Source of the DNA: a virus
DNA length: 26,092 nucleotides
Strand: one strand, 5' to 3'
Virus record (IMG/VR): IMGVR_UViG_3300034061_003747
Coordinates: 1 to 26,092 of that record
Below the pieces are notes generated by a model. The model searched no databases, was not told the origin of the DNA, and saw nothing but the letters and a program-made list of their open reading frames with translations. Below, in pieces: positions 4,989 through 26,092 of the stretch (position 1 is the stretch's first letter; each line of letters opens with the position of its first letter). Both the position numbers and the translations under genes were made by a program.

Positions 4989-5170
4989 TAGCTTTATTAA
5001 AATTTGCAGTAGGCTTTTTCGTAGGACAAATTATGGGATCTGTGTATAGAGCTGGTCATTTAGGAATTGGAGCAAGTATCCTATCTGCTATTGGAATTAC
5101 ATTTATTATATGTATTGCATTAGACAAGACTTTTTCTGAAAATAGCGAAGATGATAATGAAAAAAAGTAA
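4985..5170 (+). CDS. Small inner-membrane protein, 61 aa
   Basis: Two hydrophobic segments, about residues 2-20 and 29-47, separated by a short basic loop (YRAGHLG) and followed by an acidic tail (SENSEDDNEKK). This is a two-TM hairpin that could be a holin or an unrelated membrane accessory protein. It is about 3.4 kb from the endolysin gene, so a lysis role is not supported by position. The start overlaps the previous stop as ATGA, and the 3' end overlaps the following gene. Confidence 0.6.
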   Translation: MIALLKFAVGFFVGQIMGSVYRAGHLGIGASILSAIGITFIICIALDKTFSENSEDDNEKK

Positions 5171-5366
5171 AACTACCTCTTCAACAATAGTAGTTTCCAA
5201 TTCTTCTGATGCTACTAGCAATACTGCTAGGTTGTCAGCTTATCCTATTGGAATTGATGGATACTGGGATTATCAGAAGGATTATTCAGTATTAAAAGAA
5301 TTTACAGATGAAGAACTTTCTTTGGAACTCTTAAGAAGAACTTCTCTAGGAAAAGAACTTGAATGA
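5157..5366 (+). CDS. Hypothetical protein, 69 aa, with shared C-terminal motif
   Basis: Unrecognised. The ATG at 5157 is chosen over the one at 5151 because GCGAAG then sits at a normal distance upstream. The N-terminal half is Ser/Thr-rich and probably disordered (KSKTTSSTIVVSNSSDATS). The middle holds GIDGYWDYQKDYSV and the C-terminus ends RRTSLGKELE. That ending matches the C-termini of the genes at 8962-9261 and 12961-13101. The stop overlaps the next start as ATGA. Confidence 0.6.
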   Translation: MKKSKTTSSTIVVSNSSDATSNTARLSAYPIGIDGYWDYQKDYSVLKEFTDEELSLELLRRTSLGKELE

Positions 5367-5653
5367 GTCAAATATCGATTGATGATTATTTAAATTCTTG
5401 GGTTTTAAAAAGAATTGACTATGAATTACAAGTCAAGGGAAAAGCTAAGATAAATAATGATGGATGGAGAAAGCTTAGAAATTGCCATTTAATTAGTTAT
5501 TTAAATAAGTTAGATAATCCATTCTCATTTTTATTCCATTTAAAATATAAACATAAACGATTGTTTAATCAAATATCTTGCGCTAATAAACTTTATTATG
5601 TAGAATTAGAAAAGAGACACGATTCTTTTGCTATACATAAGGTAAAAAAATGA
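5363..5653 (+). CDS. Hypothetical basic protein, 96 aa
   Basis: Unrecognised. The protein is basic, with Lys/Arg/His-rich stretches (LKYKHKRLF, LEKRHDSF, HKVKK) and an N-terminal acidic helix. No TM segment, zinc motif or nucleotide-binding motif is visible. The charge would fit nucleic-acid binding, which is only a guess. ATGA overlaps join it to the genes on both sides. Confidence 0.58.
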   Translation: MSQISIDDYLNSWVLKRIDYELQVKGKAKINNDGWRKLRNCHLISYLNKLDNPFSFLFHLKYKHKRLFNQISCANKLYYVELEKRHDSFAIHKVKK

Positions 5654-8423: not shown

Positions 8424-8834
8424 ATGATTACGCTTAAAGATGCTATTACTTCATCAGGTTCTTATCCAGATAGAGAGACTCATCCAGAACTCACTCCAGA
8501 TGTGATTTCCAACTTAGAAGTGCTTCTTATTCACGTTAACGCTTTATTAGATGGGTTAAAGATAAGTAAGGTTAGGATCTCTTCTGGATTTCGTCCCAGT
8601 CAGGTTAATGCCGCTACTAAAGGTGCGGCTAAGAAATCTAATCATATGTTAGGTAATGCAATTGATATTATTGATGATAAGCAACAGTCCTTAGCTAATA
8701 AGCTAACTCCAGAAATTCTTGCTAAATATAACTTGTATATGGAAGATAAGTCTGCTACAATTGGAAAAGTGACAAATTGGGTGCATTTACAAACGGTAGC
8801 TCCTAAATCTAAAAAAAGAATATTTTTACCATGA
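8424..8834 (+). CDS. M15-family peptidoglycan peptidase, probable endolysin
   Basis: Predicted zinc D,D/L,D-peptidase that cleaves peptidoglycan cross-links during lysis, 136 residues. The family pattern is clear: SSGFRP at 53-58, KKSNHMLGNAIDI with zinc ligands H74 and D81, the likely catalytic E107 in YMED, and WVHLQ with zinc ligand H121. Its length suits a single-domain phage M15 endolysin. There is no signal peptide, so it would need a holin. The following 43-residue single-TM protein overlaps it by four bases and is a candidate partner, and a lipoprotein precedes it. Confidence 0.88.
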   Translation: MITLKDAITSSGSYPDRETHPELTPDVISNLEVLLIHVNALLDGLKISKVRISSGFRPSQVNAATKGAAKKSNHMLGNAIDIIDDKQQSLANKLTPEILAKYNLYMEDKSATIGKVTNWVHLQTVAPKSKKRIFLP

Positions 8835-8962
8835 ATCAAGATAACTACCATCACGAAAGAATTAAGTTACAGCGGCTACAATCTAAGTTACAGTTTGCTC
8901 AAGTATTAATCCAGGCTATTACATTAATAGCTACTTTAATATTATTAGGTAAGAAGCTATAA
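8831..8962 (+). CDS. 43-aa single-TM protein, holin candidate
   Basis: Sequence layout: a charged N-terminus (MNQDNYHHERIKLQRLQSKLQ) that forms an amphipathic helix, one hydrophobic helix at about residues 23-39, and a basic end GKKL. Overlaps the endolysin stop (ATGA) and ends TAATG at the next start. The position directly after the endolysin suggests a small holin or an inner-membrane spanin. The length is very short for either, so the role is inference. Confidence 0.5.
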   Translation: MNQDNYHHERIKLQRLQSKLQFAQVLIQAITLIATLILLGKKL

Positions 8963-9261
8963 TGGTAACAGTAACTGTATTATCTATTCTATTAACCATA
9001 AATATGTTTCTTATGCATGGTCATAAGTTTGTGCAACTTTATTACTTTTTTTATAAAAAATTAAATAAGCCAAAATTTAAGCCTAATGAATTAGTTATGA
9101 TTGATGATAGAGAATTTGAAGTAATACTACTAACTCATAATAGTAAGCCTTATACATATTTTTGTTTACCTACTAATAATTATAATGTTAGAATGTTAGA
9201 GACTTATTTTCATGAATCTAGAATTAAAAAAAAGACTGGATTATTAAAGGAATTAGAATGA
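8962..9261 (+). CDS. Membrane protein with small cytoplasmic domain, 99 aa
   Basis: N-terminal hydrophobic segment (residues 2-17), then a basic/aromatic stretch (YYFFYKKLNKPKFK). A domain follows that reads like an SH3-like barrel (FKPNELVMIDDREFEVILL ... YTYFCLP). The C-terminus RIKKKTGLLKELE matches the shared C-terminal motif. The start overlaps the previous TAA, and the stop overlaps the next gene as ATGA. Its function is unknown. Nearness to the endolysin suggests, but does not show, a lysis-related role. Confidence 0.6.
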   Translation: MVTVTVLSILLTINMFLMHGHKFVQLYYFFYKKLNKPKFKPNELVMIDDREFEVILLTHNSKPYTYFCLPTNNYNVRMLETYFHESRIKKKTGLLKELE

Positions 9262-11813: not shown

Positions 11814-12075
11814 CCTGGAAGTTGAATACGAGCTAGAGCGTCAAATAAGCGATTTAAAACAGGAAGTAGCTAAATTAAAAAAATTGTTGCGAGAAAAAGA
11901 AAAGTCTGATAAACTTCTAAAAGTTGATAAGCCTATAGAGAAAGTTAAAAAACAAGTATCTAAGGAATGTCCTAAATGTGGAGCTAATGTTTCTACAACT
12001 GAATTACCTATGGGATCTTTAGAATTATGCGAAGCAGCATGTGGGTATAGATCAGTAAGAAAAAAAGGCAGTTAA
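11791..12075 (+). CDS. Coiled-coil protein with C-terminal zinc ribbon, 94 aa
   Basis: A basic start (MGRKRKAN) is followed by a heptad-rich helix (residues 9-55, LEVEYELERQISDLKQEVAKL onward). The C-terminal zinc ribbon is ECPKCGANVSTTELPMGSLELCEAACGYR, with C60, C63, C80 and C84 as ligands. Zinc ribbons ending LELC..CGYR are common in small phage proteins. Likely a nucleic-acid-binding dimer. It overlaps the nuclease gene by 23 bases, so a shared complex is plausible. Confidence 0.65.
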   Translation: MGRKRKANLEVEYELERQISDLKQEVAKLKKLLREKEKSDKLLKVDKPIEKVKKQVSKECPKCGANVSTTELPMGSLELCEAACGYRSVRKKGS

Positions 12076-13438: not shown

Positions 13439-13489
13439 TTATATATTATGTACAAACAATGGTGTTTGTTTTTTATTATTGGAGTTTTC

Positions 13490-14260
13490 ATGATCAGAGT
13501 CTTTTTGTGCCTAGCATTATTAACTGGCACAGTTTTTGCTAAACAAACTGAAATTGTTCTAACAGAAGAAAACTCAGTTAATTTTAATCAACCAGTTACT
13601 GGCGAATATACAGCTAAAAAATCTATTGAAATTTTTAAGAAGTCACTTAAAGCTAAAGAATTGTACTTAGTTCTAGATACTCCTGGTGGATCTGTTATGG
13701 CTGGGTTACAGTTTATTGACATTATTAAAAGCTTAAATATTAAAGTACATACTATTACTATTTTTGCAGCATCTATGGGTTATCAGATTGTGCAAGAATT
13801 AGGAACTAGATATATCCTTTCTTCTGGATCTCTTATGAGTCATAGAGGATCTGTGTCAGGAATGTCTGGACAAGTTCCAGGTGAGCTTAATTCTAGACTT
13901 AATTTTATCCAATCTCTTTTATCTAAAATGTCAGAATCTGCATCTAAAAGAGTTGGTATGTCAAAGTCAGACTACGAGGCTGCTATTGTAAATGAGTTGT
14001 GGACTTTTGGACAAAGTGCTGTTGATTCTCGTCATGCAGATGAAGTTGCTAGTGTTAGATGTGGGGACAATCTTTTAAATAAAACAAGATCAGAAGTAGT
14101 TAGTACAATTTTTGGAGATGCAGTTGTTACTTACTCAGCTTGTCCATTGGTTAGTGCTCCTATCTCAGTAGAACCTGTTAATGGTGTTAAAGCTGAACTT
14201 GCTCCTCTAATTAAAGATCAAATTAAAGCTAAAAATAAGAAGACTAATTTATCATTCTAA
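13490..14260 (+). CDS. Exported ClpP-like serine protease
   Basis: 256 residues with a signal peptide (MIRVFLCLALLTGTVFA, cleavage expected after residue 17). The start at 13490 is preferred over 13448 because GGAG lies five bases upstream. The mature part is a ClpP/crotonase fold: LYLVLDTPGGSVMAGLQ (oxyanion-strand region), IFAASMGYQIVQ with nucleophile-type Ser in ASMG, and LMSHRGSVSGMSGQVPGELNSRL with the catalytic-position His in SHRG. The place of the third catalytic residue reads VNELWTFGQSAV, where the usual Asp seems replaced by Asn or Glu. It would work in the periplasm or envelope rather than with a cytosolic Clp ATPase. Substrate unknown; candidates are host envelope proteins or signal-type peptides, as for SppA. 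Confidence 0.8.
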   Translation: MIRVFLCLALLTGTVFAKQTEIVLTEENSVNFNQPVTGEYTAKKSIEIFKKSLKAKELYLVLDTPGGSVMAGLQFIDIIKSLNIKVHTITIFAASMGYQIVQELGTRYILSSGSLMSHRGSVSGMSGQVPGELNSRLNFIQSLLSKMSESASKRVGMSKSDYEAAIVNELWTFGQSAVDSRHADEVASVRCGDNLLNKTRSEVVSTIFGDAVVTYSACPLVSAPISVEPVNGVKAELAPLIKDQIKAKNKKTNLSF

Positions 14261-15153: not shown

Positions 15154-15344
15154 TGAAAAATAGAATTGAAATTAAAAAAGATAAGGATTCTGAAGATTAT
15201 TATATTGATATTTATGACATGGCTGATTTATTTGATGATGTAGAAGTAGTTGAATCTTATAAATTAGAATGGAAAGATGATGGATCTGTTTTAATAGAAT
15301 TTTTTGATAAAGATGGTAATAAAGTATTTCCAAAGAAAGCTTAA
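15153..15344 (+). CDS. Hypothetical very acidic protein, 63 aa
   Basis: Unrecognised. Dense Asp/Glu content (DKDSEDYYIDIYDMADLFDDVEVVES), beta-strand-like C-terminal half (YKLEWKDDGSVLIEFFDKDG). TAATG overlaps join it to both neighbours, including the ClpX-like ATPase. A small acidic protein in this position could be an adaptor or DNA mimic. Nothing in the sequence proves either. Confidence 0.55.
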   Translation: MKNRIEIKKDKDSEDYYIDIYDMADLFDDVEVVESYKLEWKDDGSVLIEFFDKDGNKVFPKKA

Positions 15345-16270
15345 TGAAAACTCCTGAGCAAATTAAAAAAGAATTGGACGAGTATGTTATTGGTCATGAA
15401 AAGACTAAAAAATCTCTTTCGGTAGCAGCTTACAATCATTTTAAAAGAATGAATGGAAGCTCTATTAAAAAGTCAAACGTACTCCTAATTGGACCTACTG
15501 GATGTGGCAAAACCTATTTAGTTTCTATTTTAGCCAGGATTCTAGGGGTTAGTTTTTTAACCAGCGATGCGACTCAATTTACTTCATCTGGGTATCAAGG
15601 TAGAAGCGTAGAAGAGCTTATTACGGATCTGCTGGGTATTTGTGAAGGAGATGAGAGAAAAGCTGCTAAATCAATTATTTACATTGATGAAATTGATAAG
15701 ATTAAAAAGAAAACTAATCAAGACGGTGGAGCTGATGTTAATGGACTTGGCGTACAGCAATCTCTTTTAAAGCTACTAGAAGGAAGTGATGTTCCGTATA
15801 TTTCCAAGTATTCCCAGAATGGGGAGTACGATAGGAAGATGGATACTAAGGATATTATGTTTATATGCTCAGGAGCTTTTGTAGGTCTAGAATCTGCTAC
15901 AGTTCCTAATCTAATAGACTTTGGGATGATTCCAGAGTTCTTGGGTAGGTTTCCAGTTATCACACAGCTTCAGGAGCTTAAATTTGACGATTATAGAAAG
16001 ATCCTACGTGACTCTAAGGGGTCTATCCTAAACTCGTTTAAAGAGTGGTTTTTGAGCGAAGGGATTGAATTAGTAGTAGATGATAGTGCTATTAATATTA
16101 TTGCTCAGAAAGCAATTGAGAAGGGTCTAGGAGCTAGAGGTTTGCACAGTGTTTTAGATGAAGCTCTTTTAAATGCTCAATTTGAAGTTCCTAGCTTAGA
16201 GAAAAAGCCAAGCAAATTTACCTTAGATTCTATGGTAGTTATGTCTGGAAAGCCTAGATGGGTTTATTAA
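15344..16270 (+). CDS. ClpX-like AAA+ unfoldase lacking zinc domain and ClpP-docking loop
   Basis: 308 residues against about 420 for bacterial ClpX. It opens at the AAA+ module (LDEYVIGHEKTKKSLSVAAYNHFKR), so the N-terminal zinc-binding domain is missing. Walker A GPTGCGKT is at 50-57, pore loop 1 GYQG at 83-86 (ClpX has GYVG), Walker B IIYIDEIDKI with D115 and E116, PEFLGRFPVI with the arginine-finger-type R202, and sensor 2 GLGARGLHSVL with R265. Between SGAFVGLE and IDFGMIPEF only seven residues remain, so the long segment bearing the IGF ClpP-docking loop is gone. The protein probably remodels rather than degrades its targets. Phage complexes or host proteins are possible substrates; the acidic small protein before it is a possible adaptor. 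Confidence 0.88.
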   Translation: MKTPEQIKKELDEYVIGHEKTKKSLSVAAYNHFKRMNGSSIKKSNVLLIGPTGCGKTYLVSILARILGVSFLTSDATQFTSSGYQGRSVEELITDLLGICEGDERKAAKSIIYIDEIDKIKKKTNQDGGADVNGLGVQQSLLKLLEGSDVPYISKYSQNGEYDRKMDTKDIMFICSGAFVGLESATVPNLIDFGMIPEFLGRFPVITQLQELKFDDYRKILRDSKGSILNSFKEWFLSEGIELVVDDSAINIIAQKAIEKGLGARGLHSVLDEALLNAQFEVPSLEKKPSKFTLDSMVVMSGKPRWVY

Positions 16271-22815: not shown

Positions 22816-25629
22816 TTATCCTTGTCTGCGTAATAATTCTTGCAATGCTGCAGTTCTAGCAGCTGTGGCATCTGTATTTACTATGTTAGCTCTATTCTCA
22901 AATCCTTGTCCAGCTAAGTAAGCTTTGTACTTATTTTCTAAATCTTTTATAGCTAATTCTTTTGCTTTAGCACTTCCATAAGCTTTCATAGCTCCAGTGT
23001 TTATTCCACCTACAACTCCACCTATTCCTCTAAAAATATCTCCTACGACATTAGTACCTGCTATATTACCAGCTCCAGAAATAATTCCACCTGCTCCAGA
23101 TCTAATATCTTCAACTCCCTGTCCTACTGCACCTAATCCTTTAATTCCCAATTTAGATTCTAATTCTTTATATAGGTCTGAAGTTGCTTGAAATGGATCT
23201 AAGGTATTGGCTCCTAATGTTCCACCTATTGCAGCACCTATTGCAGCTCCGGGTGCTCCAGCACCTATTGCAGCACCTGTACTTGCTCCAGCTGCAGTTC
23301 CTTCTAATGTTTTTCCACCAATATTAGCTTCTTCTGCTCTAGATGTAGAGGTAGCTTTTAGATATTTATCCAATAGATCTTTATTACTAAGTAAGGATTT
23401 AGCTTGTTCTGGTTCTAAGGATGAAACATCGTACCCAGCTTGTCTAAGCATGTCTGCAACATTTCCTTCAACATTAGCAGAATAAGTACTAGTTTTTTTA
23501 CCTAATAAGTTACCTCTAGATACTTTTTTCTCACCAACACCTGTCAGTTCTGCCGACTCAGCACTTTCTTTAAATTTTTGTTGTGCTTCATTCAAAGCAT
23601 TTCTAATAGCTTCTGTATTTAAAGAACTTTGTAAATTCTGAGTTCCAGCTTTTTCCATATCTGAATATAGCAACTCTTTTTGTAAAGCTTTAGAAAGATC
23701 CGTTCCAGCTAATCTAGCAAGAGCTTGTTGTCTAGCTAATTCATCCTTGGTAATTAATCTCCCTCTTTCAGCAGCAACATCTTGGATTAATCCCTGTCCT
23801 AGATTGTATATTCCCTCTCCAGAACTAATTCCTAAAACAGCTGCTTCTTCTGGGCTTAAATTTAAAGCATTTAAATTAGTTCCTGATTTTAATTTTTGTA
23901 GCCCAGTTTCATATGATTTTTTTTGAGCTACTAGATCTTTATAAGCTTGATCTGCTTTTTTAATTCCAGCTTCTCTTTGTGCTATTTGCTCTGGCGTAAA
24001 TTGTGTATATTCGCCTTCTCTATTTGTGAATTTTTGATAAGCCGCTATTCTAGCTTTTTCAGCAGCTCTTATTTGAGCATTAGAAACTGCAGGATTCTGT
24101 GCCGTAAATTCAGCAATTTTTTTATCTAATTCCGCTTTATTTGTAGCTTCTCTATTTCTAATTATACCTCTGTAATATTCTGGAAGTTGATCCCATTGAG
24201 TCATATATACTGGATTTCCAGCTGAGTCAACCATAGGTTTACCTTCAGCTGTTAACTTTTGAATTGGTTCTTTAGTGACAGGATCAACAACTGGCTCTTT
24301 AATAAGCTTATCTATTCTAGATTCTGTTCCTGTTTCTTCAGCTGTTCTTCCTTCTAAAAAAGATTTCCTAGCTTGCTGCTGAATATCTGCTATTTCTTTA
24401 GCTCTTCCAGTTGCTAAATTGGCAGATTCTGTTTGAGCTTGCTGAAGTTTTTGTTGTAAGTTTCCAGCTTGTTGAGCTTGTTGTTGGAGCTGTCCAACGC
24501 CTTGCTGAGAAGCATTTAAAAGCAATGCATCTAATTTTCCAGAATAGTCTCTATTTTGGCTAAAAATATTCCTTAGAAGTTGTTCTCTTCCAGCAGCTGT
24601 CTGTGTTTGCTTAATTGCTTCTTGAGCTGTTCTTGCTTTTTCCGCAGCTCTATTATATAACCCAGCTTCTTGAATAGATCCTGGACCACCATATTTAGCA
24701 TTAATAATATCTGCAAAACGCTGCTGCTGTTCTGGAGTTACTTCGGCTGAAGTCGGAGCCGTAGGAGTTGTTGGTTGAGCTGGTATTTCTGTATCTAATT
24801 TTGCATTTATATTTTCACGACCTATAAGACTTTCTGGACCCCAAGTGATAATCCTATTGGGGTCCATTGGCATATTTCTTCTTACATCGTCTTCTAGATT
24901 TGAATCTCTGTATCCGGGTAATTTAGTTTGATCTATCCCGTACTTCTCAAAAATTTTTTTTCTACTCTGTAAAATATCTCCTAATTCCATCTTGGAACCG
25001 TCTGGATTAAGAAAAGATCTGTTGTCCATTTCATTTCTATAATCTTGATACTTATCGCCTAGTAAGTTTTTAAGATAATCCTGTGTAGCACGTTCTATCG
25101 GATTAGGCGGAGGATTAATACCTACTCTATATGCAGGGCCTCCAATTGTTCTATCTATAGGCCTTTCTGGAGCTGCAATTGGCTGTTGAGCTTGATAAAC
25201 TGTTCCTCTAGCAGCATCTATAGCAGCTTGTACATCTTTTGCAGCAGTTCCCATATTAGCTAAGCTTCCTGCTTCTAATTGCTTTCCAAAAGTTTGTGTA
25301 GCTTGAGAAATTCCTTTCTGAGCACCAGTTGCTACATTTTGAACTTTCTGAGTTGCTGCCTGAGCTATTTTTTGCTGCCCTCCACCCTGAGCGGCTTGGA
25401 GATAGCTTTTAAGATTTGCAAAAGTTCCAGTTCCTGCTTTTTGCTGTTTTGGCGCAGCTTTAACAGCGGATGCCTGAGCAGTACCTGCTTGAGTTGCTAA
25501 TTGAGTTGGCTGGTTTTGTTCTTGTGCTTGAGGTTGTTCTTGTTGCTTTTTCTTTTCTTCTTCAGATAAAGTAGCACTCATCCCTTGTCCGGGTGCTTGA
25601 TTTCCTGCTTGATTTATTCTCATTCCCAT
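22816..25629 (-). CDS. Largest virion-like protein, 937 aa, first gene of minus-strand operon
   Basis: Mostly Gln/Ala/Lys-rich coiled coil with a disordered N-terminus (residues 1-130, Gln-rich). A central region holds several helix-rich blocks (QQQAQQAGNLQQKLQQAQ and similar). A short beta-like segment PVVDPVTKEPIQKLTAEGKP...AGNPVYMTQWDQ lies about residues 450-490. Toward the C-terminus is an uncharged glycine-zipper region: GTAAGASTGAAIGAGAPGAA, then GGIISGAGNIAGTNVVGDIF and GGVVGGINTGAM. These could cross a membrane as part of a DNA channel. Start is ATG 25629, with GAGGA five bases upstream; a second ATG lies at 25623. No catalytic motif seen. Likely a large internal or tail-associated virion protein. 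Confidence 0.65.
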   Translation of the reverse strand: MGMRINQAGNQAPGQGMSATLSEEEKKKQQEQPQAQEQNQPTQLATQAGTAQASAVKAAPKQQKAGTGTFANLKSYLQAAQGGGQQKIAQAATQKVQNVATGAQKGISQATQTFGKQLEAGSLANMGTAAKDVQAAIDAARGTVYQAQQPIAAPERPIDRTIGGPAYRVGINPPPNPIERATQDYLKNLLGDKYQDYRNEMDNRSFLNPDGSKMELGDILQSRKKIFEKYGIDQTKLPGYRDSNLEDDVRRNMPMDPNRIITWGPESLIGRENINAKLDTEIPAQPTTPTAPTSAEVTPEQQQRFADIINAKYGGPGSIQEAGLYNRAAEKARTAQEAIKQTQTAAGREQLLRNIFSQNRDYSGKLDALLLNASQQGVGQLQQQAQQAGNLQQKLQQAQTESANLATGRAKEIADIQQQARKSFLEGRTAEETGTESRIDKLIKEPVVDPVTKEPIQKLTAEGKPMVDSAGNPVYMTQWDQLPEYYRGIIRNREATNKAELDKKIAEFTAQNPAVSNAQIRAAEKARIAAYQKFTNREGEYTQFTPEQIAQREAGIKKADQAYKDLVAQKKSYETGLQKLKSGTNLNALNLSPEEAAVLGISSGEGIYNLGQGLIQDVAAERGRLITKDELARQQALARLAGTDLSKALQKELLYSDMEKAGTQNLQSSLNTEAIRNALNEAQQKFKESAESAELTGVGEKKVSRGNLLGKKTSTYSANVEGNVADMLRQAGYDVSSLEPEQAKSLLSNKDLLDKYLKATSTSRAEEANIGGKTLEGTAAGASTGAAIGAGAPGAAIGAAIGGTLGANTLDPFQATSDLYKELESKLGIKGLGAVGQGVEDIRSGAGGIISGAGNIAGTNVVGDIFRGIGGVVGGINTGAMKAYGSAKAKELAIKDLENKYKAYLAGQGFENRANIVNTDATAARTAALQELLRRQG

Positions 25630-25658
25630 ACAATTCCTCTGTAATATAAGGGTGTTAA

Positions 25659-25678
25659 ATAGCTCTTTTTACAGCTAT
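25659..25678 (-). promoter_or_regulatory. Leader hairpin upstream of the 937-aa gene
   Basis: ATAGCT (25659-25664) and AGCTAT (25673-25678) form a 6-bp stem with an 8-base loop in the leader of the minus-strand operon. On the minus strand it is followed by only TTT, so it is not a strong terminator. It may stabilise or regulate the mRNA leader. Confidence 0.35.
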
Positions 25679-25692
25679 AAAAAATCAATATC

Positions 25693-25707
25693 TTACAACA
25701 CTTGTAA
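25693..25707. promoter_or_regulatory. Palindromic operator candidate
   Basis: TTACAACACTTGTAA: a perfect 6-bp inverted repeat around a CAC centre. It lies just past the -10 box of the minus-strand promoter, covering the expected start site near 25700. This is the usual place for a repressor to block initiation. Perfect 6+3+6 palindromes also occur by chance in AT-rich DNA. Confidence 0.45.
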
Positions 25708-25735
25708 ATATAACAAAGTTATGATACTTTATCAA
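25707..25735 (-). promoter_or_regulatory. Sigma70-like promoter for the virion operon
   Basis: Read on the minus strand: TTGATA (25735-25730), 17-base spacer, TATATT (25712-25707). Each box has one mismatch to the consensus, and spacing is ideal. Transcription would start near 25700 and give a leader of about 70 bases before ATG 25629. This is the best promoter-like sequence I found in the window. Confidence 0.62.
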
Positions 25736-25769
25736 GGAAGATTAATTTCTTCTCTTTTTGCTCTTTTGG

Positions 25770-26092
25770 ACCGTGAAATAGAGGACTTACAAGCGAGTCC
25801 GATATACGAGCCGGTGTAGGAAACGAAATACTCGACTAGGTGTCGCAAAACCATTAAGTACCTAGCGGAAAGCCAGAGAGTTAAGCAAAGTTATTAGAAG
25901 ATTGGAACTTTGCAGAAAAGATACATTCAGGTTAAAAGCCCAAGCCTTTTCCCCAAATAGCTGAAAGCACACTAAGGAACTGGTTTTACTAAGTAGAGAA
26001 TTACGCTCTATATAAGTAAAGCTATGTAAATTATTTGATTATTTCTAAAGTAAGCCGGTACTTTACACCTGCTGAAAATCCAATTCCATACG
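25770..26092 (+). ncRNA. Candidate large structured RNA (continues past window end)
   Basis: No convincing gene lies here on either strand. Stems readable by eye: GGACT/AGTCC (25783-25787/25796-25800); CTAGGTGT/AGTACCTAG-type 8 bp (25836-25843/25858-25865); GCAAAGTT/AACTTTGC (25885-25892/25906-25913); GAAAAG/CTTTTC (25915-25920/25946-25951); GTTTTACT/AGTAAAGC (25983-25990/26015-26022) enclosing GTAGAG/CTCTAT (25993-25998/26006-26011); TAAAGTA/TACTTTA (26046-26052/26059-26065). Four of these pairs are G-U only if the plus strand is the RNA and would be A-C mismatches on the other strand. A loose CGGT/ACCG pairing (25770-25773 with 25812-25815) may close a multi-branch. No tRNA, tmRNA, RNase P or clear group I/II intron signature was found. 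The exact 5' end is unknown. Confidence 0.5.

Follow-up and report, generated by a model that had tools for sequence, protein, structure and literature searches.

At one end of a viral contig, two minus-strand virion genes are separated by roughly 400 nucleotides that encode no recognizable protein, and the question is what this slot holds. The contig is 26,092 bases long and was analysed whole; we refer to all of it as the window. The original prediction, made from the sequence alone, placed a large, unnamed structured RNA of the plus strand beside the virion operon and saw it truncated at the end of the window; it could be a relative of the GOLLD and ROOL classes or form a new one.

The non-coding slot and its neighbours

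The slot, the genes on either side and the RNA that we place in it are as follows.

22816–25629, minus strand: flanking gene for a 937-aa virion-operon protein of unknown function; ORF start at 25629
25630–26030, no strand: non-coding slot of ~400 nt between two minus-strand virion genes, without a conserved ORF
25702–25730, plus strand: position of a sigma70-like promoter, TTGTAA-17-TACTTT, at the same place in homologues; the window copy is weak and below the scan threshold
25736–26025, plus strand: whole RNA, inferred extent ~290 nt, from hairpin P0 just past the promoter position to hairpin P7 ahead of the 136-aa gene; 10 homologues conserve it, and both ends are inferred and unmapped
26031–26092, minus strand: C-terminus (YGIGFSAGVKYRLTLEIIK and stop) of a 136-aa flanking gene, truncated where the contig stops and aligned with L024 2695–3105 and L018 7120–7530

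The 136-aa gene is whole in L024 and L018, and its end at 26031 in the window is set by homology. The 937-aa protein has no PHROG or Pfam match and, used as a query, brought in no relatives on its own. The slot failed the test for protein coding, with no conserved reading frame between 25630 and 26030 and stops in all six frames of all 10 homologues. The predicted position beside the virion operon was correct, and so was the absence of a plausible gene as far as 26030. Two other parts of the prediction failed: coding sequence begins at 26031, so the RNA stops short of the window edge, and at ~290 nt it is medium-sized rather than large.

Part of the slot is strikingly conserved. Across five contigs, positions 25741–25920 (~180 bp) are almost identical, yet the adjoining coding DNA is only 69–84% identical. 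This near-invariance marks importance but supplies no covariation.

Elsewhere in the window, the early operon encodes a ClpP-like protease (13448–14260, plus strand) and a 308-aa AAA protein (15344–16270, plus strand), whose counterpart in the related phage G001 matches AAA_2 and ClpB D2-small domains; it is possible that they form a phage ClpXP pair. The early region of G001 also has a MoxR-like ATPase gene adjoining a metallopeptidase/VWA (DUF2201) gene (L056 9145–11619, minus strand).

A plus-strand RNA with a fold kept by compensatory changes

Single-sequence folding energy is unremarkable (z of -1.29 for the plus strand, -1.07 for the minus strand and -1.61 for 25736–25915), and the signal in the slot exceeds chance only by comparison of relatives. 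A first 15-base pattern, applied by pattern scan and blastn, matched 47 contigs, just four of which were true homologues with the same slot. Alignment of a tail protein together with two further patterns added L063, L064, L066, L193 and L195, and the slot copy of G014 joined the set through a later model search. In the resulting slot set of 10 homologues, 54 pairs in nine helices are paired in 94.4% of cells, and 22 of the 54 pairs are changed on both sides, compared with 8.1 in shuffles. When partners were slid by one to three columns (3'-slid controls), only 35–46% of cells paired and three to six pairs were changed on both sides.

The 17-base motif UGGACCGUGAAAUAGAG also matched L192, a phage contig with unrelated genes that has the core of the RNA alone in common with the window. 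A gapped pattern, GTGAAATAG-N(64-94)-GCGGAANGCC, returned 34 stretches, comprising 10 contigs already known, 11 new ones and 13 chance matches; the 11 new contigs carry the core within a covarying closing helix, although some are near-duplicates. A covariance model built from 11 sequences (R1) recovered phages absent from its training at 44–55 bits, and it also matched unexpected second copies in the G001, L219 and L210 contigs at 20–31 bits. For a second model, R2, a test on 744 kb of unrelated sequence yielded no match even with E values of up to 10 allowed. A loose-pattern scan of genome contigs returned at least 120 matches, none of them real.

Family-wide, the alignment A9 (19 rows) pairs in 89.8% of cells (66.4% when shuffled), and 19 of its 26 pairs change on both sides. 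Its covariation score is 0.586, against 0.163 for shuffled and at most 0.129 for slid versions. When each lineage is reduced to a single row (12 rows), pairing stays at 89% of cells compared with 64% in shuffles, and none of 1000 shuffles reaches the observed value. A9 was fitted to the structure, which biases it in the structure's favour; A10, a MAFFT alignment made without structure, concurs on P1–P4. G-U or U-G cells outnumber A-C or C-A cells by 30 to 14, which fits an RNA of the plus strand, as does the promoter position. These comparisons show that the slot encodes a plus-strand structured RNA whose fold is kept by compensatory changes. Its parts, all on the plus strand, are listed below.

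25737–25752, plus strand: P0, 5' hairpin GAAGA/UCUUC (GGAGC/GCUCC in L064); two pairs changed on both sides, 84% of cells paired
25754–25888, plus strand: family-wide core, a four-way junction modelled by R1 and R2 (cmsearch, 139.7 and 125.2 bits, respectively), with covariation in A9
25761–25769, plus strand: 5' strand of P1, partner 25873–25880, with U25766 bulged; covaries in L064, L195 and the slot copy of G014
25770–25781, plus strand: A-CCG-UGAAAUAG, the P1b strand CCG and a near-invariant single-stranded motif; invariant in the 16 sequences of alignment A6
25783–25800, plus strand: P2, hairpin GGACU/AGUCC (GAGUU/AACUC in L063 and L066); three pairs changed on both sides
25807–25834, plus strand: P3, hairpin CGAG/CUCG; 100% paired, three of four pairs changed on both sides (four of four family-wide)
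25836–25865, plus strand: P4, hairpin CUAGGU/ACCUAG (CUGGGU/ACCCAG in four homologues); five of eight pairs changed on both sides family-wide
25866–25872, plus strand: CGG-AAAG, the 3' strand of P1b and the internal loop opposite A25770 (alignment A9)
25873–25880, plus strand: 3' strand of P1; covariation in the slot set and family-wide
25885–25913, plus strand: P5, hairpin GCAAAGUU/AACUUUGC (GCGUAAGU/ACUUGCGU in L064); six of eight pairs changed on both sides
25983–26022, plus strand: P7, 3' hairpin with a weaker inner stem at 25993–26011; 93% of cells paired, changes mostly one-sided

The core of ~130 nt consists of the closing helix P1, the motif GGACCGUGAAAUAG, hairpins P2–P4 and AGCGGAARGCC. 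P1 is long and variable in sequence, with six of its seven pairs changed on both sides in A9. Inside it, GG-A-CCG faces CGG-AARG-CC, giving P1, an internal loop and the 3-bp helix P1b, after which come the single strand UGAAAUAG and hairpins P2, P3 and P4. Because P4 is invariably closed by CU/AG with CGG immediately behind it, stacking between P1b and P4 is likely. For L195 and L204, folding without constraints yields the four-way-junction layout directly. In the slot group, P0 precedes the core, and P5 and P7 follow it; the structure of this 3' part (P5–P7) is only partly resolved. We define the family by covarying P1, P1b, P2, P3 and P4 together with GGACCGUGAAAUAG and AGCGGAARGCC, a definition that the window RNA meets.

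The invariance of A-CCG-UGAAAUAG in A6 is partly a matter of ascertainment, and the same holds for the other pattern motif, because second copies found by the model read otherwise: UGAAAUAG drifts to GUGAAAAAA or GUUAAAAAA, and the other motif reads GCGAAACGCC or GCGGAACGCU. Two further pairings were tried and rejected. A pseudoknot of ACCG (25770–25773) with CGGU (25812–25815) is not general, and base pairs between AAAACC of the P4 loop and a downstream GGUUUU cannot form in the slot copy of G014.

The original prediction had inferred the strand from four wobble pairs, which read G-T, T-G, T-G and G-T on the plus strand, and the inferred strand held. The stems that it listed are present, although some individual stems differ from ours. 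Wobbles 25842–25859 and 25843–25858 are invariant in the slot homologues, in a part of P4 that is built differently family-wide. The pair 25984–26021 is U-A in six homologues and U-G in four, as a plus-strand RNA predicts, and the outer pairs of the hairpin 25993–26011 are weakly supported.

Distribution, known families and replacement in the slot

Seven phage records exceed 60 kb; R2 found two copies in six of them (G001, G002, G003, G009, G014 and G018) and one in the seventh, G005. G016 and G020 also have two. G001, G014 and G018 have many proteins in common and form one podovirus-like group of ~80–85 kb, and the slot copy of G014 has the same neighbouring genes as the window slot. Compared with this group, G015 and G013 have just one to three weak protein matches, and G011, G017, G019 and L192 have none at E 1e-4. 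The family is thus spread over unrelated phages, and the two-copy habit is established for one phage group. Neither the spread nor the second copy could have been seen from the window.

Outside these records, BLAST of the RNA found no match in 50,697 cultured phage records, and the two cultured phages closest in terminase or polymerase lack the RNA. A sample of 1,547 bacterial genomes drawn from four large groups yielded no copy, which is weak evidence given that the search was coarse and scored only eight to nine candidates per genome.

Known families do not account for the RNA. At the gathering score, Rfam 15 has no match in the window, the class-1 relatives, L061–L063 or nine distant loci, and at E up to 10 it returns nothing relevant for 25500–26092, including GOLLD, ROOL, HEARO, group I, group II, tmRNA and RNase P. 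ARAGORN found no tRNA or tmRNA genes in the window or in seven relative loci (20-kb stretches). GOLLD and ROOL are phage-borne, elaborately folded non-coding RNAs of unknown function (PMC12286853); many GOLLD RNAs exceed 800 nt, one ROOL has 659 nt, and they often lie near tRNA islands and also occur in prophages (PMC12286853). The window RNA resembles them in being phage-borne, elaborately folded, non-coding, found by covariation and of unknown function, but it differs in its length of ~290 nt, in the lack of any tRNA found nearby and in usually occurring twice per genome in the main phage group. A criterion of ~600 nt or more near tRNA islands is unmet, as the slot itself has only ~400 nt and no tRNA genes were found.

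The open-licence papers that we searched, excluding large candidate lists such as that in PMC8040213, which were not compared, hold no description of the RNA or its motif. We regard the RNA as new at the level of the family; the broad sort to which it belongs is already known, from GOLLD, ROOL and other structured phage RNAs whose function is unknown. No relationship to GOLLD or ROOL was found, and the alternative of a new class is supported. Three outcomes would have counted against an unnamed structured RNA, namely a lack of compensatory changes, an Rfam hit or a conserved reading frame; all were checked and none refuted it.

Two phages of the same group carry a different conserved non-coding sequence of ~320 nt, GGUNACUCCAUACGCCAUGAAAUGAGGGGC..., in the same slot (class 2; L062 12745–13066 and L061 8160–8490, both minus strand). 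R2 does not recognize it, and the unfiltered model gave no link between class 2 and the four-way-junction family. Of two class-2 patterns, the first gave three chance contigs and the second nothing new. A swap of function or of allele is suggested. In L061, an ORF for a 180-aa DUF559-type (Vsr-like) putative endonuclease (8505–9047, minus strand) separates the promoter position from the class-2 RNA. The match of the upstream flank to L063 runs on into hairpin P0, which makes the cassette look like a homing replacement. In L192, an HNH endonuclease gene (5043–5441, plus strand; PHROG 3377, E 7e-13) lies downstream of the RNA, separated from it by ~660 nt with little coding potential, in which the longest same-strand ORF has 60 aa.

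Transcription and possible roles

At the promoter position, slot homologues read TTGCCA-17-TATATT (L063, L066), TTGACA-17-TATACT (L195) and TTGACT-16-TATTCT (L064), scoring 11/12 in L195 and 10/12 in L063 and L066; only the strongest homologues beat shuffles. Outside the slot, strong promoters lie just upstream of the RNA in L192 (TTGACA-17-TATAAT), L210 (11/12) and L219 (12/12), and behind the second copy of L219 there is an intrinsic terminator (7840–7825). No such promoter was found upstream of the RNA in the GC-richer phages L196, L199, L214 and L217, and no plus-strand terminator was found in the slot. An own promoter and a stand-alone transcript are supported but not shown; no transcript has been seen, and the RNA ends are inferred.

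Two further promoter-like sequences were noted. A minus-strand sigma70-like site, TTGATA-17-TATATT (25707–25735, 10/12), overlaps the plus-strand promoter position and could drive the 937-aa gene, in which case two promoters would overlap in opposite directions. The second copies in L210 (6400–6800) and L219 (7900–8130) lie directly behind TTTAACAACTATAT, a string that precedes another gene in both contigs and is possibly a phage-specific promoter.

On balance, and with moderate confidence, we favour the interpretation that the slot encodes a discrete, trans-acting phage non-coding RNA, antisense to the virion operon. The phage group of the window usually carries two members of the family. P1 closes a four-way junction from which P2–P4 radiate, with P1b predicted to abut P4, and the junction holds the single-stranded pieces that hardly vary, UGAAAUAG and the internal loop A/AARG. 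We infer that these pieces most likely serve to bind some host machine that many bacteria possess, because no phage protein was found to accompany the RNA. Action in trans on a host component is inferred, because the phages that share the RNA have no obvious common partner gene and its fixed letters are single-stranded at the junction; no target, partner or phenotype is known. RNA polymerase or the ribosome is a possible partner, but the two, even taken together, are guesses. The poor promoter in the window, the failure to find a plus-strand terminator in the slot and the lack of an observed transcript speak against a stand-alone trans-acting RNA, and a position antisense to late genes also leaves a cis role possible.

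Among the alternatives, a cis-acting RNA is unlikely but ranks highest. It would be a leader controlling its own transcript, either by antitermination like that of the HK022 put sites or as an antisense brake on the late operon. The slot RNA is indeed antisense to late genes, promoter-like sites facing opposite ways cover the same stretch, and HK022 likewise has two structured put sites per genome. However, put sites are only ~65 nt and act in cis on their own transcript, whereas in G001 neither copy of the family leads the late or the early operon; moreover, copies in other phages sit in varied contexts, and a terminator lies behind one second copy. We rate slightly lower, and also unlikely, a mobile or RNA-guided element, either a guide of the omega-RNA kind or the remains of a ribozyme that homing endonucleases have moved. 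Like HEARO, omega-RNA and TnpB guides, this is a structured RNA with endonuclease genes sometimes adjoining (the HNH gene near the RNA of L192, and the DUF559-type gene in the L061 slot, where a different RNA replaces the family member), and the family is present in unrelated phages. Against this, most copies have no endonuclease nearby, Rfam gives no HEARO, group I or group II match, and slot copies are inherited with the phage lineage. In addition, PF07282 (TnpB/Cas12f-like) is above the cut-off in none of 12 phage records of carriers, although the records may be fragments and IscB-type nucleases were outside the search. A PF07282 (zinc ribbon) match below the cut-off, at 14.2 bits, lies at 11911–12051 (plus strand) of the window.

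The remaining two explanations are very unlikely. A packaging RNA working with the terminase, like the pRNA of phi29, would fit a medium-sized structured phage RNA with a slot copy among virion genes. Nevertheless, the family usually has two copies per genome, its carriers include phages with unrelated large terminases, its architecture is different and without an Rfam match, and phi29-type pRNA serves a different kind of motor. These arguments are only indirect; a pRNA is defined by its binding to the prohead connector and the packaging ATPase. Least likely of all is a signal at the level of DNA, such as a replication origin, a packaging site or simply conserved DNA. The near-identity across ~180 bp in five phages would be consistent with such a signal, but compensatory changes with G-U intermediates on one strand and a correctly placed promoter in relatives argue for an RNA.

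Returning to the trans-acting RNA, a bolder reading is that the family represents an undescribed class, with two diverged copies per genome, that binds and reprograms a conserved host machine. We regard this as a serious possibility, but would not at present bet on it.

Ordinary annotation misses this RNA family, because it is nearly absent from reference sets (the 50,697 phage records searched by BLAST, and Rfam); with the covariance model and a short motif, it can now be searched for and tested directly. Although phage genomes contain hardly any unused DNA, this RNA is retained by unrelated phages, and one group usually has two copies. A fold preserved by matching mutations suggests an important, though still unknown, role in infection, and its combination with fixed single-stranded letters implies a partner common to many hosts. 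If the bolder reading is true, phage takeover proteins would have a widespread counterpart made of RNA, one that unrelated phages exchange and that homing occasionally replaces with another RNA in the same slot.
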